From positions 1-18,281 of the forward strand of contig CAKSHT010000024.1 of NCBI GenBank assembly GCA_934457235.1: DNA of 18,281 nucleotides. The letters run 5' to 3'. The notes beneath the pieces were generated by a model that saw only the letters and a list, made by a program, of their open reading frames with translations, was not told where the DNA came from and ran no database searches. This document shows positions 1,071 to 5,743 of this stretch, piece by piece (positions within the stretch are counted from its first letter, which is position 1; the number at the start of each line of letters is the position of its first letter). The stretch comes from an uncultured Oscillospiraceae bacterium (GTDB lineage Bacteria; Bacillota; Clostridia; Oscillospirales; Ruminococcaceae). The position numbers were made by a program, and so were the translations under genes.

Positions 1071-1084
1071 TTTTGTCGATATTA

Positions 1085-1113
1085 AGTATAGCATATACTA
1101 ACGCCTTTGTCAA
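1085..1113 (-). promoter_or_regulatory. metK promoter
   Basis: On the minus strand TTGACA (1113-1108) is separated by 17 nt from TATACT (1090-1085), giving a near-consensus sigma-A promoter. Transcription would start about 8 nt before the riboswitch P1 helix, as expected for an S-box leader. Confidence 0.88.
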
Positions 1114-1140
1114 TAGGGAATAACATATAAATTCTTATGT

Positions 1141-1156
1141 ATTCCGGTGCCGGAAT
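1141..1156. repeat. 16-bp palindrome upstream of the metK promoter
   Basis: ATTCCGG and CCGGAAT flank TG, so the 7-bp arms are perfect. It lies about 28 bp upstream of the metK -35 box and downstream of the 1170-1201 hairpin. It could be an operator or a small cruciform or hairpin; no regulator of metK is visible here and S-box genes normally need none. Confidence 0.4.
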
Positions 1157-1169
1157 TTGGCGCTTTAGG

Positions 1170-1201
1170 AATAAAACAGCGGCTTTGATTCCGAAACCGC
1201 T
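1170..1201 (-). terminator. Likely intrinsic terminator for minus-strand transcription from the MATE gene
   Basis: On the minus strand AGCGGTTT pairs with AAAGCCGCT (one bulged base) around a short loop, followed by GTTTTATT. It is the first hairpin with a T-rich tail downstream of the MATE gene at 1366-2751. The MATE transcript would therefore include the 120-nt element in its 3' untranslated region. The tail is imperfect. Confidence 0.55.
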
Positions 1202-1321
1202 CAGGCTGTCGATAAAGGCACATCTGCGTCGTCAGTTGCCGTTCGGCAGGCACTAAGCCTAGCCAAACAGCAACTTCCTAGCATCTGCACCTTTCTCGGC
1301 AGCCTGGGATAGTTACTTTTT
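1202..1321. repeat. 120-nt dispersed structured element, copy 1
   Basis: This segment and 5587-5706 have the same length and align end to end, from CAGGCTG to a final TTTTT. Shared blocks include GATAAAGGC, TTCGGCAGGCAC, TAGCATCTGCA and GCCTGGGATAGTT. The core stem pairs 1234-1247 with 1262-1275 (12 of 14 pairs), and CAGGCTG (1202-1208) pairs with CAGCCTG near the 3' end. Several stem positions differ from copy 2 but stay paired. It may be a structured RNA or a small non-autonomous repeat; the active strand is uncertain. I do not recognise a named family. Confidence 0.75.
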
Positions 1322-1331
1322 CAACAAGCAG

Positions 1332-1355
1332 GGCGGCTCCGCTTCCGGAACCGCC
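1332..1355. other. GC-rich hairpin just after the MATE stop codon
   Basis: GGCGGCTCC (1332-1340) and GGAACCGCC (1347-1355) pair with one mismatch around a 6-nt loop, 10 bp before the MATE stop codon in plus coordinates. On the minus strand no T run follows directly, so as a terminator it is weak. The clpB terminator occupies the same place next to copy 2 of the dispersed element. Confidence 0.6.
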
Positions 1356-1365
1356 GTATATTTAT

Positions 1366-2751
1366 TTATGCCGCGCTCTTTCTGAGCTTTTCCGGGATAT
1401 CCTCCGACCCGCACCGTGTTTTCCGCAGTGCGATAAAGAAGTAGATTATTTCCGCGATGGCGGTGATCGACCAGGAGAAGCTGTACAGCAGGTACAGCGA
1501 GGTTATCGTCTGAAACCACTCGAAAACCGTATACACCCATATCACGCGGAAAACGCATGAGCCTATCAGTACGATTATCGTCGGTGCAATGGTTTTTCCG
1601 ATACCGCGGGAGGCGGCGATGGTGCAGTCCATGAACGCGCCCAGGGCGTAGCTCCAGCCCATGATGCAGATACGCTCCATTCCCGCGTCGATTACCTCCT
1701 GCTTGTCGGCGAACAGCGAAAGAAACTCCCTGCCGAAGATCATCAGCAGTCCGCCGAGCAGCGCCCCGACAGCCACGGAGTATGTCAGGCTGACGAAGTA
1801 GCTGCGTTTCATGCGGGATTTGTTTCCGGCGCCTCGATTCCGGCTGACGAAGCTTGCGCACGCCGTGTAGATCGCCGCCTGTACATTGAATATTATGGCG
1901 TCCGCATTTGCGGCGGCGGAGTTTCCGGAAACGGTCATCGCGTCGAAGTGGTTCACGCCGGTCTGCACAAAAAGATTCGCGATTGCAAACACCGCGTTCT
2001 GTATCCCGGCTGGAATGCCGAGCATAAGCACGTCGGCACAGGCGATGCGGCTTATGTAGCGGCGCGCCGGCTTTACGGCGCAGCAGTCCCGGCGCCTGCA
2101 AAGATGTATCATTATCAGCGCGGCGGAAAGATACTGCGCGATAACGCTGGCGATGGCGACGCCCTCCGCTGCCATTCCGCAGACTATCACGAAAAACAGG
2201 TTCAGTGCGACGTTCAGCACTCCGGCGATGGAGAGGTAGACGAGCGGACGGCGGGTCTCGCCGCAAGCGCTGAGAATTCCGTTACCGAAGTTGTATATCG
2301 CCATCGCGGGCATTCCAATGGAGTATATCCTCAGATACGCCACGGCGCTTGGCATAAGCTCGTCCTTTGTTTTCAGCAGGGAGAGCACAGGCTCGGCGAG
2401 TACCATGCATAAAAGGCACATGACAAATCCGATGATGGTGCACACCAGCAGCGAGGAGTGTACCGTCATGCGGACGCCCTCGTCGTCCGCGGCGCCAAGC
2501 CTGTGTGCGGTGCGGACGTTCACTCCCGCGCCCATACCGATAAGAAAGCCGGTGAACAGCGATACAAGCAGCGTTGTGGAGCCTACCGCCCCTAGCGCTA
2601 TGTAATCCGCAAATTTCCCGGCAATTGCGACGTCGCTGAGGTTGAACAGCACCTCCAGCACCTGCGTCAGCATCAGCGGCAGGCTGAACAGAAGTACATT
2701 CTTCCACAGCGAGTCTGAGTTCATATCTATAGAACACGTCTTTGTATTCAT
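1366..2751 (-). CDS. MATE family efflux transporter
   Basis: A 461-residue integral membrane protein expected to export cationic or amphipathic compounds in exchange for Na+ or H+. The N-terminus LWKNVLLFSLPLMLTQ is the usual MATE entry helix, followed by LEVLFNLSDVAIAGKF, the family DxxxxG-type loop, and about twelve hydrophobic segments arranged as two homologous six-helix halves. The length is normal. A sigma-A promoter lies at 2820-2848. GGAAG about 10 nt before the ATG is a moderate ribosome site. It diverges from a second MATE gene at 2966. The substrate cannot be read from sequence, and a specific name such as norM or mepA is not justified. Confidence 0.93.
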   Translation of the reverse strand: MNTKTCSIDMNSDSLWKNVLLFSLPLMLTQVLEVLFNLSDVAIAGKFADYIALGAVGSTTLLVSLFTGFLIGMGAGVNVRTAHRLGAADDEGVRMTVHSSLLVCTIIGFVMCLLCMVLAEPVLSLLKTKDELMPSAVAYLRIYSIGMPAMAIYNFGNGILSACGETRRPLVYLSIAGVLNVALNLFFVIVCGMAAEGVAIASVIAQYLSAALIMIHLCRRRDCCAVKPARRYISRIACADVLMLGIPAGIQNAVFAIANLFVQTGVNHFDAMTVSGNSAAANADAIIFNVQAAIYTACASFVSRNRGAGNKSRMKRSYFVSLTYSVAVGALLGGLLMIFGREFLSLFADKQEVIDAGMERICIMGWSYALGAFMDCTIAASRGIGKTIAPTIIVLIGSCVFRVIWVYTVFEWFQTITSLYLLYSFSWSITAIAEIIYFFIALRKTRCGSEDIPEKLRKSAA

Positions 2752-2965: not shown

Positions 2966-4918
2966 ATGGATACATCAGAATTATTCGGCAAGGAAAAGAT
3001 CAGCAGGGTACTGTTGAAGCTGGCGCCGCCGGTCATGCTGGCGCAGCTTATCCAGGCGCTTTATAACATCGTTGACAGCCTGTTCGTCGCGAATTATTCG
3101 CAGTCCGGGCTGACGGCGCTTTCGATAATCTACCCGATACAGCTTCTTATGATAGCGCTGGCGGTGGGCACCGGAGTTGGAATAAATACGGTCATGGCGG
3201 CAAGACTAGGCTCCGGCAGACGCGCGGAGGCCGATGAATACGCCGGGGTAGGCACTCCGCTTGCAGTGGCCTTATGGGCTGTTTTCGCGGCGGTCTGCTG
3301 GGCGATAATGCCGGCGTATGCAAAGATGTCCACCTCAACGCCGGAGGTCATAGAGGATGTCGTGGCTTACGGAAGGATAGTGTGCGTATTCAGCTTCGGT
3401 CTGTTCCTGGAGAGCGTATGGACTAAGATTCACCAGGCGGACGGAAATATGAAGCGCCCGATGATAGCGCAGATAGTCGGAGCGCTGACGAATATTGCGC
3501 TTGACCCGCTGCTCATTTTCGGATTGTTCGGGCTTCCGGAGATGGGGATCTCCGGCGCGGCGGTTGCTACTGTTATCGGGCAGATAGTCGCGGCGCTGGT
3601 GGTCATGAAGAAAGGCGTCAGAAAGCCGCCGGAGCTGAACAAATTCCCCAAGCATATCGGAACTATCTACCGTCTGGGCACGCCGAATATCCTTATGCAG
3701 TCGGCGTATACCCTGTACATTTTCGGATTGAATCTGATACTCGCCACATTCTCCGACCAGGCGGTGACAGTTCTTGGATTGTACTACAAGTGGCAGACGA
3801 TAATCTTCATTCCGCTCGGTTCGATGCAGACTTGTATAGTCCCGGTGATAAGCTTCAATTATGCCGCCCGGAACATCGACCGCTGCCGTAAAACGCTTTC
3901 CACATCGATGATATTCGGCATGGCGCTGCTTTCAATCGGCACGCTGTGCTTTGAGTTCATTCCGAGCGAGCTGCTGCACGTGTTTTCTCAGGACGAGCTG
4001 GTCATAAGCATCGGTATCAACGCGTTCAGAATTATCGGCATAAGCTTTATTCCACTGGTTTCGTCGCTGACGTTCCCGGTGTTTTTCCAGGCGGTGGGGT
4101 CAAGCGCCAAAAGCTCCATGCTTACGGTGATAAGAACGGTGTTCCTGTTCGTTCCGCTGGCGTTCCTGTTCTCGCGGTTCGGTCTGGATTACTTCTGGCT
4201 GACGTTCCCGGTGACTGACTCCATCACAAGTATCGTGGGTTTTGTACTTTACCGGAAGTTCCTTAAAAAGCCGTACGTTACGCATGCCAAGAGACCGGAG
4301 GACGTGCAGGCTGTCATAAAGCCGTCCCACCCCGGCGTTATTGTGACCATCGCGAGGGAACACGGCTCCTCCGGAAAGCAGATAGGAAAGCTCGTCAGCG
4401 AGAAGCTCGGCATTCCGTTCTACTACAAGGAAATGACCGCGCTTGCTGCGCAGGAGAGCAGGCTTGACAAGGAGTTCATCTCGGATATCAACCGCAATTC
4501 TCCGGAGCGCCACCAGGAGCTTTATCTGAGCACGAAAGTAGTTCAGCACGCGGTGCAGGCACAGAACAAGGTGATTTGCAGGATCGCGGAAAACGGAAGC
4601 TGCGTTATCGTGGGAAGGGCCGCAGACCATATTTTACAGGGTCACAAGGACGTTGTAAGGGTGTTTATATACGCCCCGGAGGAATACCGTATCGGGCGTG
4701 TGATGGAGGTCTATGGTGACAGCCGCCAGCAGGCGGAGCAGAATGTCCGGCGCTCGGACGAAGCGCGCGGAGCGTATTACCGCAGTATGTCCGGCAGGGA
4801 GTGGGGAGATCACCGGAATTACGACCTCATGCTTGATTCGTCGATAGGCGTAGAGGAAACGGCGAAGCTCATCACGGAGTACATACACGCAAAGGAGCAC
4901 CATAAGGTGCAGAAGTGA
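2966..4918 (+). CDS. MATE transporter fused to a C-terminal cytidylate-kinase-like domain
   Basis: 650 residues in two parts. Residues 1 to about 440 are a complete MATE transporter of about twelve helices, starting with KISRVLLKLAPPVMLAQ and ALYNIVDSLFVANYS. After a short charged linker, residues about 456-640 resemble the cytidylate-kinase-like family (Pfam Cytidylate_kin2). The visible motifs are the P-loop REHGSSGKQIG (464-474), VIVGRAADHIL near 550, RSDEARGAYYR and WGDHRNYDLMLDSS. The kinase domain must be cytoplasmic, at the inner face. Its substrate is unknown; it may bind nucleotides to control transport, or phosphorylate something the transporter handles. The DIP1984-family gene follows after 12 nt, so the two are probably co-transcribed. 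The domain calls are secure; the functional link is inference. Confidence 0.93.
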   Translation: MDTSELFGKEKISRVLLKLAPPVMLAQLIQALYNIVDSLFVANYSQSGLTALSIIYPIQLLMIALAVGTGVGINTVMAARLGSGRRAEADEYAGVGTPLAVALWAVFAAVCWAIMPAYAKMSTSTPEVIEDVVAYGRIVCVFSFGLFLESVWTKIHQADGNMKRPMIAQIVGALTNIALDPLLIFGLFGLPEMGISGAAVATVIGQIVAALVVMKKGVRKPPELNKFPKHIGTIYRLGTPNILMQSAYTLYIFGLNLILATFSDQAVTVLGLYYKWQTIIFIPLGSMQTCIVPVISFNYAARNIDRCRKTLSTSMIFGMALLSIGTLCFEFIPSELLHVFSQDELVISIGINAFRIIGISFIPLVSSLTFPVFFQAVGSSAKSSMLTVIRTVFLFVPLAFLFSRFGLDYFWLTFPVTDSITSIVGFVLYRKFLKKPYVTHAKRPEDVQAVIKPSHPGVIVTIAREHGSSGKQIGKLVSEKLGIPFYYKEMTALAAQESRLDKEFISDINRNSPERHQELYLSTKVVQHAVQAQNKVICRIAENGSCVIVGRAADHILQGHKDVVRVFIYAPEEYRIGRVMEVYGDSRQQAEQNVRRSDEARGAYYRSMSGREWGDHRNYDLMLDSSIGVEETAKLITEYIHAKEHHKVQK

Positions 4919-5389: not shown

Positions 5390-5586
5390 GCGTTTATACG
5401 CAGGTAATCCGGCGGTAGTGGGCGAGATCTCAGCGGTTGAGAATGAGCCGCACTCACATTGGGTATGTTCGGGCGCATACTCTTATTCAAACAGTGCAAG
5501 CCCAGTATTGTTACAAATGCACACAAATATCGCATTTTTACTACCAGATCGTCAGATCGCCGGGTGAGGGAGGGAACGGGGAAGCG
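5390..5586. other. Non-coding stretch with small hairpins, no gene recognised
   Basis: Between the DIP1984 gene and copy 2 of the dispersed element. It begins with GCGTTTATACGC, a 4-bp hairpin right after the stop codon. It also holds CTCA-GCGGT-TGAG, GCGG/CCGC and GTATG/CATAC inverted pairs, and GTGCA/TGCAC further along. None has a T run, so no terminator for the plus-strand pair is evident. Open frames crossing this stretch on either strand lack coding character. Confidence 0.5.
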
Positions 5587-5706
5587 CAGGCTGCTGATAA
5601 AGGCGCGTCTGCGGCGTTGGCAGTAGTTCGGCAGGCACAAAGCTTAGCCGAACTACTGTTTTCTAGCATCTGCATTTTTCTCAGAAGCCTGGGATAGTTG
5701 CTTTTT
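5587..5706. repeat. 120-nt dispersed structured element, copy 2
   Basis: Same length and block order as copy 1 at 1202-1321. The core stem is perfect for 12 bp: CAGTAGTTCGGC (5621-5632) pairs with GCCGAACTACTG (5647-5658). An AGGC...GCTT pair with one G-U extends it inside the loop. CAGGCT at the 5' end pairs with AGCCTG near 5690. As with copy 1, it lies directly beyond a GC-rich hairpin after the 3' end of a minus-strand gene, here clpB. Open frames crossing it on both strands are judged spurious. Confidence 0.78.
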
Positions 5707-5707
5707 G

Positions 5708-5743
5708 AAAAAACAATGGGCTGTGCATTTCTGCACAGCCCAT
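5708..5743 (-). terminator. clpB intrinsic terminator
   Basis: On the minus strand ATGGGCTGTGCA (5743-5732) pairs perfectly with TGCACAGCCCAT (5727-5716) around a GAAA tetraloop, followed by TG and six T. It starts 4 nt after the clpB stop codon. On the plus strand the hairpin is followed only by GATTTTATT, so it may act weakly in that direction as well. Confidence 0.95.

Follow-up and report, generated by a model that had tools for sequence, protein, structure and literature searches.

The window, by which we mean the whole stretch of 18,281 nucleotides analyzed here, contains two copies of a hairpin-forming repeat. Copy 1 is flanked by a MatE gene (minus strand, ending at 1366) and by a SAM riboswitch with a gene that we take to be metK-like, judging from its riboswitch. 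Copy 2 is flanked by a DUF6847 gene (plus strand) and by clpB (minus strand), which was assigned by its Pfam domains. The SAM riboswitch is found at 931 to 1069 on the minus strand, upstream of the presumed metK-like gene (Rfam RF00162, 57.6 bits), and positions 2966 to 4918 encode a MatE transporter fused to a cytidylate kinase-like domain. The features of the two copies are as follows:

1178 to 1201, no strand: left copy of a terminator-like palindrome (AGCGG..CCGCT), abutting the left end of the element
1202 to 1306, putative functional strand minus by wobble asymmetry (an RNA would run from 1306 to 1202): copy 1, 105-nt hairpin
1307 to 1331, no strand: right end of the mobile unit of copy 1, from aligned tails; the family consensus is GACTTTTTATACAAGCTG, and the sequence is more diverged here
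1332 to 1355, no strand: right copy of the terminator-like palindrome, adjacent to the minus-strand MatE gene at its 3' end (1366)
5587 to 5691, minus, as the putative strand of the family: copy 2, 105-nt hairpin, whose own wobbles oppose the family trend
5692 to 5706, no strand: right-end remnant beside copy 2, from aligned tails
5716 to 5743, minus: terminator-like hairpin identified by eye, beside the 3' end of the minus-strand clpB and adjoining copy 2

The two copies form the longest direct repeat of the window (1199 to 1330 and 5584 to 5715) and can be aligned without gaps (78% identity over 132 nt), as had been claimed in the original prediction, according to which both segments align along their whole span. 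That prediction described a 120-nt unit with a long core stem. The core pairing was found, but the stem is far longer, with 41 pairs over 105 nt in each copy; similarly, the unit does contain the hairpin but runs ~24 nt past it as a transposon-like right end. The compensatory changes noticed in the stem are real and were confirmed in the sequences of both copies. Numbered outward from the loop-side GGC, the pairs in copies 1 and 2 are, respectively, C.A and A-T (pair 8), C-G and T-A (pair 9), T-A and A-T (pair 11), and T-A and C-G (pair 12). The copies differ at 20 of the 82 paired columns and at 4 of the 23 unpaired columns. Compared with 200 shuffles, the folds had z scores of -7.4 (plus) and -9.1 (minus) for copy 1 and of -4.7 (plus) and -4.0 (minus) for copy 2, and both copies surpassed all shuffles on both strands.

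Exact patterns derived from the window copies had no match in viral contigs or genome contigs, and a more general pattern had none in viral contigs. A blastn search of copy L106 against phages and plasmids (E <= 0.01) equally gave no match. Relatives were reached through the MatE-kinase protein, which led to 80 loci; the genomes of five of these loci were then searched and contained one clear diverged copy (L081), located directly 3' of a gene that is presumably secA-like. L081 shares few stem letters with the window copies, is paired throughout, and has the same internal motifs. Among these three sequences, 19 of the 41 pairs changed on both sides, compared to 6.4 in shuffles. The covariance model R1 was built from them on the plus strand, that of the original prediction. 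It had no match in the 80 loci around MatE-kinase relatives (E <= 1), the window and L081 being the sole matches, and none in the other four of the first five genomes (E <= 10). In a set of 100 genomes (one relative and 99 kin, G001 included), for which at most 39 candidates were scored per genome, R1 had matches at E <= 0.1 in at least 38; nearly all matches listed measured 105 to 106 nt. Six genomes had 19 to 86 matches each, a range that includes reverse-strand duplicates and length variants. A second model, R2, was built on the strand favored below (window minus type). In a sample of 394 genomes from the order, at least 9 were matched by R2, including three that were already known; with 10 candidates scored per genome, this count is a lower bound. 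G200 and G342 had five R2 matches each. The matches in these two genomes and in G335, G355, G401, and G424 lie inside other palindromic repeats or flanks, and most of them have, by eye, the G.A steps and a CUUUGUG-type tip. Distant hairpin relatives were also observed inside longer palindromic repeats with different outer ends (L192, L195, and L199). The proteins most similar to the TrpRS of L102 mostly bear the name Oscillospiraceae, where a name was given.

At the gathering cutoff, Rfam 15 had no match at the element in the window or in 20 loci, in accordance with the initial statement that no named family could be assigned. By E value, window positions 1080 to 1400 had two weak overlapping matches (E values of 3.8 and 4.8) far below the cutoff, and in 8 distant loci no match reached the gathering cutoff on an element. 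The 105-nt hairpin family is thus a large, dispersed structured family of Oscillospiraceae-like bacteria that is absent from Rfam 15, and a literature search of titles and abstracts, covering mostly papers outside subscription, retrieved no prior description of the element. Several variants were observed. In most of 20 length variants (L220 to L239), an additional small hairpin of the CGCATT..AACGC type is inserted into the upper helix or internal loop; L221 appears to contain one copy nested in another; and a copy of 173 nt after rubrerythrin in G013 (L272:1326-1498) exceeds the usual length by ~68 nt through an insertion in its upper part.

For the analysis of covariation, R1 was searched in 90 sources (E <= 1e-6). 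This provided 103 rows, of which 7 reverse-strand rows and the weaker neighbor L114:1743 were left out. The 95 copies kept correspond to 91 distinct sequences, 82 of them of 105 nt, and 49 representatives (<90% identity) drawn from the 105-nt copies were aligned without gaps. In these, 97.9% of 2009 pair cells were paired, compared to 77.7% in shuffles, rates that are biased upward because the copies are mostly best-scoring matches. Changes on both sides were seen at 33 of the 41 pairs (367 cells, compared to 88.6 in shuffles), and none of 500 shuffles reached any of the five measures. Sliding the partners by 1 to 3 columns gave 30 to 43% pairing. A consensus fold of the same alignment reproduced this structure and added an invariant G-C pair within the internal loop. 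Little variation is seen across copies at the mismatches, at the bulge, and at most positions of the loops. The covariation expected of a functional structured RNA is therefore present, beyond all controls. The original prediction would have been refuted by a genome search with only the two copies as its result and no covariation beyond chance; the covariance-model search that it suggested found many copies in related genomes, with covariation far beyond that of shuffles.

Wobble positions carry information on the strand. On the plus strand, the 82 copies contain 3148 Watson-Crick cells, 140 A.C, 34 G.T, and 40 others. Since A.C on the plus strand is G.U, a tolerated wobble, on the minus strand, the minus-type strand is favored by approximately 4:1. 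Grouping at 80% identity into 19 clusters gave 38 A.C versus 12 G.T on the plus strand, and 14 of the cluster representatives lean to the favored strand, 2 lean to the opposite strand, and 3 are tied. As R1 was built on the plus strand, its discovery of copies was biased against this result. Copy 1 agrees with the family (4 A.C and 1 G.T on the plus strand), and copy 2 is opposite to it (6 G.T and 1 A.C). The direction of the bias was identical in all four gene contexts (68 copies), with 39 A.C and 6 G.T in the (+,+) context. Read on the minus strand, the Y.Y mismatches of the plus strand become G.A, with a tandem G.A step at 22-23/83-84; the favored strand also has a bulged U, a loop of the UUUGU type, and, next to the internal loop, a second tandem G.A. 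Judging from these sequence comparisons, the plus strand, on which the original prediction was made, is probably not the functional one. Several known motifs were compared by eye with their general consensus. Kink-turn, hammerhead, and hairpin ribozyme readings of the internal loops were discarded, given that the tandem G.A steps are within helices lacking the 3-nt bulge and that a third helix is missing.

The element continues for ~24 nt past the 105-nt hairpin to a right end, resulting in a unit of ~129 nt. A conserved tail ending in ACTTTTTATACAAGCTG follows the hairpin in 27 copies and is missing from 57; the remaining copies are intermediate or of insufficient length. An insertion sequence (IS) in L130 with DUF772 and DDE_Tnp_1_6 transposase domains (PF05598 and PF13751) has ends that by eye are similar, not identical, to those of the element: CAGTCTGTATATAAACCCC compared to the element left end CAGACTGTATATAAAGCCCC (L110), and CAGCTTGTCCAAAAACCCC compared to the element right end CAGCTTGTATAAAAAGTC. 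The same 34-nt palindrome is present on both sides of this IS (by eye). The IS is without the element hairpin, since L135, which spans it, was matched by R1 (E <= 1e-6) only at a neighboring copy. PF13751 matches (E <= 1e-5) were found in 2 of 14 genomes, one of them (L131) broken by an internal stop. Flank duplications above the 99% null were present in 9 of 93 copies (~1 expected), and 7 exceeded every null value. The duplicated flanks are terminator-like palindromic stretches of 20 to 29 nt, with the left match at or within 2 nt of the border and the right match 17 to 26 nt after the hairpin; most copies had no duplication above the null. Copy 1 is among the nine: its left palindrome (1178 to 1201) has a flank-match score of 14, above the 99% null of 12 and below the highest null of 16, and it equals the right palindrome (1332 to 1355) at 18 of 24 positions, counted by eye. 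Copy 2 was absent among the best flank matches listed in this test.

IS1272 is a member of the IS1182 family, whose long duplications define the family. According to the accessible part of a study on IS1272, this IS targets inverted repeats or stem-loops, a structure-dependent transposition model has been proposed, and duplication of the whole stem-loop is one branch of this model (PMC5678879). The carrier is very likely a nonautonomous miniature inverted-repeat transposable element (MITE) with IS1182-type ends. The MITE-like repeat considered as an alternative at the outset has thus gained support as well, through these ends and the palindrome duplications in 9 of 93 copies. Target-site duplications in all copies, next to a transposase family, had been named as evidence against a functional RNA; duplications were found in the nine copies and an IS1182-type IS in one genome, and most copies showed no duplication. 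Two further observations concern mobility. A different repeat of ~230 nt in G001 (L097 and L098, with L091 being a part only) has the same ends as the element, and its copy in L097 shows a duplicated terminator palindrome (by eye). In G042 (L125 and L255), a rubrerythrin 3' fragment with an element lies ~10 kb from an intact element-free gene, as if flank and element had been copied together.

The fold appears to be maintained after insertion. The 86 copies of 105 nt can be divided into 24 with the tail, 53 without it, and 9 intermediates; their pairing on the favored strand amounts to 98.2, 97.6, and 98.4%, respectively. Measured against a hand-typed consensus, the divergence of the stems was 0.129 (tail), 0.209 (no tail), and 0.165 (intermediate) and that of the loops 0.063, 0.066, and 0.072; divergence is 2- to 3-fold lower in loops than in stems. 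We then compared seven orthologous sites at which the element has the same place and orientation in genomes that are 89 to 95% identical around the sites. Pairs with unaligned flanks (L162/L312, L170/L312, L202/L217, L307/L313, L310/L314, L100/L188, and L135/L307), pairs with L293, in which the motif search did not locate the element, and the inverted pair L173/L289 were left out. The element differed at 13 of 735 positions and the flanks, 60 nt each, at 48 of 837 (p = 4e-5). Without the L102/L202 element and with all flanks kept, it differed at 4 of 630 (p = 2e-8). There were thus 3 times fewer differences in the element than in its flanks, and 9 times fewer without the rewritten element. This exception, L102/L202, has 9 differences in 105 element positions compared to 8 in 119 flank positions, and four adjacent pairs are rewritten, two of which pair only on the favored strand, as G.U. 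Since elements change less than their flanks, resident copies look selected; selection is the simplest reading of this slow change, the seven sites being few, and we regard selection on the fold of resident copies as likely. The selection on structure and on conserved unpaired bases that was proposed initially is thus strongly supported by covariation, by pairing in copies without the tail, and by slowly changing sites.

Palindromes might also stay matched in the absence of selection, by template-switch repair and gene conversion among copies. The L102/L202 site makes conversion plausible, because its rewritten helix segment is also present in L310. Yet such a process would be expected to correct unpaired positions, whereas the mismatched columns 12/94, 22/84, and 23/83 and the bulged column 60 persist in 77 to 82 of 82 copies; the process is also at odds with the slower divergence of the loops and with the strand-specific wobble bias; we consider it highly improbable.

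One site suggests that the element can be inverted. Judging from their wider flanks (92% over 3.1 kb), L173 and L289 occupy the same site, and their borders agree and adjoin the same terminator. Of 105 element positions, 5 differ if one copy is inverted and 44 if not, and the 60-nt flanks differ at 42 of 119. Neither copy has the tail, and this is one of eight comparable sites. It is an apparent in-place inversion, and two independent insertions may be the alternative. Copy numbers at lower scores were also inspected with matches up to E <= 10, reverse-strand rows of the same places being omitted. With 150 of 937 candidates scored, G036 had at least 14 places at 87 to 117 bits and at least 4 at 38 to 55 bits; with 150 of 833 scored, G022 had at least 4 places above 100 bits and at least 23 at 20 to 55 bits, many of other lengths. 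The low-scoring places of G022 may be other subfamilies or decayed copies.

Integron attC sites and the ends of IS200/IS605 are precedents for single-stranded DNA hairpins that are recognized by shape. By analogy, the folded strand could be DNA, one strand of the repeat being extruded as a hairpin whose shape is recognized by a recombinase or the IS1182-type transposase, with the structure kept for mobility and with copies with altered outer stems still mobile. The wobble bias that ignores the direction of neighboring genes, the tolerance of G.T pairs in DNA, the near-constant length of 105 to 106 nt in the main group, and the apparent inversion in L173/L289 agree with such a role, as do the stem-loop targeting and the structure-dependent model of IS1272 in the part of the study cited (PMC5678879). 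However, the fold is kept in the 53 of 86 copies that miss the right end, resident copies differ less than their flanks between species, a DDE transposase acting on double-stranded ends would need no interior fold, and the IS in L130 does without such a hairpin. On balance we hold a DNA function to be unlikely, and we infer with some confidence that the fold acts as RNA rather than as single-stranded DNA.

The genomic context provided little guidance. By simple open reading frame calls, the genes flanking the 95 copies were oriented (-,-) in 36, (+,+) in 20, (+,-) in 22, and (-,+) in 11 cases, with one neighbor missing in 6; this preference is weak. In 18 of 95 copies, a likely start codon lies no more than 60 nt from the end of the favored strand; for the opposite strand, with the span widened to 85 nt to allow for the tail, this holds for 15 of 95. 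Reading of the neighboring proteins, which we take to include TrpRS, Lon, IMP dehydrogenase, rubrerythrin, and others, revealed no evident gene theme. Of 30 loci at rubrerythrin 3' ends from 50 matching genomes, 2 (L254 and L272) have the element immediately after the stop codon, so this site is not conserved across relatives; L271 and L263 have a copy at a greater distance, beyond the terminator, that of L263 being cut by the contig end. In L179 (G036), a 6S RNA match at 1266 to 1461 is close to an element copy. No conserved promoter motif was found on the favored strand beside the copies lacking the right end. The identical wobble bias in all contexts weakens a simple action in cis and keeps DNA and trans readings alive. 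Each copy might encode a stand-alone small RNA that acts in trans or titrates a protein, with dozens of paralogues per genome. High copy number, context-independent strand bias, and noncanonical motifs that are common to distant relatives (by eye) would suit this, but a conserved promoter is missing beside the copies lacking the right end, and promoter-like scores of >=9 upstream of the favored strand occurred in 22% of copies versus 16% of shuffles; we judge it quite unlikely.

The reading to which we give the best, roughly even, chance is that of a nonautonomous IS1182-type element with a functional folded RNA as its body. A miniature element of ~129 nt would insert at palindromic terminators, duplicating the palindrome, by means of a transposase that may act in trans. 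Its 105-nt body would be a structured RNA from the strand corresponding to the window minus strand, shaped as a long hairpin that is closed by a UUUGU-type pentaloop and contains an internal loop of 5 and 6 bases, a bulged U, one single G.A mismatch, and tandem G.A steps at two places. After insertion, it could form a recognized structure in untranslated regions and operon spacers, and an RNA-binding protein or nuclease, as an example of a possible partner, might thereby set transcript processing or stability. Two observations fit oddly with an RNA element of untranslated regions, namely, a bias that is independent of neighbor direction and the lack of a conserved promoter. A more speculative possibility, to which we attach less belief, is that several unrelated palindromic mobile elements of the order share one folded module with fixed noncanonical motifs. 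Each copy of the module would be maintained individually after its insertion, on one strand regardless of neighbor direction, and could be inverted at its site; the module would be a selfish or domesticated structured RNA (or single-stranded DNA) with a function that is genome-wide and not linked to a single gene.

The family adds a structured element beyond Rfam 15. Given dozens of diverged copies per genome, covariation, a strand call from wobbles, and orthologous sites, it is directly testable whether host, transposon, or neither benefits from this transposon-borne fold. Bacterial MITEs with folded transcripts are already known; to our knowledge, selection on the fold of individual resident copies has seldom been demonstrated.

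Comparison with known systems reveals a number of parallels. (i) Integron attC sites are folded imperfect palindromes with fixed extrahelical bases, variable stems, and one active strand, and their terminal R boxes have the sequences AAC/GTT. The element is also an imperfect palindrome with fixed bases and variable stems, but its fixed bases lie inside the hairpin, it has CAG..CTG ends, there was no sign of a cassette array, and R boxes at the hairpin ends were absent by eye in 34 copies. (ii) Like REP elements, it is a dispersed extragenic palindrome in high copy number. REPs are described, in the part of the source available, as 20 to 40 bp with GTAG or CGTC tags (PMC3733652); the element, with its 105-nt unit plus tail and CAG..CTG ends in most copies, does not correspond to this description. 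(iii) IS1182-type ISs have, like the element, CAGnCTGT/CAGCTTGT-type ends and insert at palindromes, and the IS of L130 has a whole palindrome on both sides, as in 9 of 93 element copies; in contrast, the element has no transposase gene and its interior is a conserved hairpin. As far as the accessible text goes, the target of IS1272 is reported to be replaced and not duplicated, whereas palindromes are duplicated at the nine element copies. (iv) BOX, like bcr1 and other Bacillus cereus repeats, ERIC, Correia/NEMIS, and RUP, is a dispersed MITE-like repeat, and so is the element; these repeats are from another host group and are compared with it by description, not by sequence. The closest published work concerns these B. 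cereus repeats and MITE motifs in general. In the sections available, transcripts contained 50.9% and 40.0% of the B. cereus repeats in two strains, and the folds of bcr10 and bcr18 are described as conserved (PMC3446304); some MITEs are stated, again in part of the source, a review of MITE motifs, to carry transcribed RNA structures that act on mRNA (PMC2229807). The element is set apart from these repeats by the covariation of its stem, its nearly fixed mismatches, and the assignment of its strand from wobble pairs.
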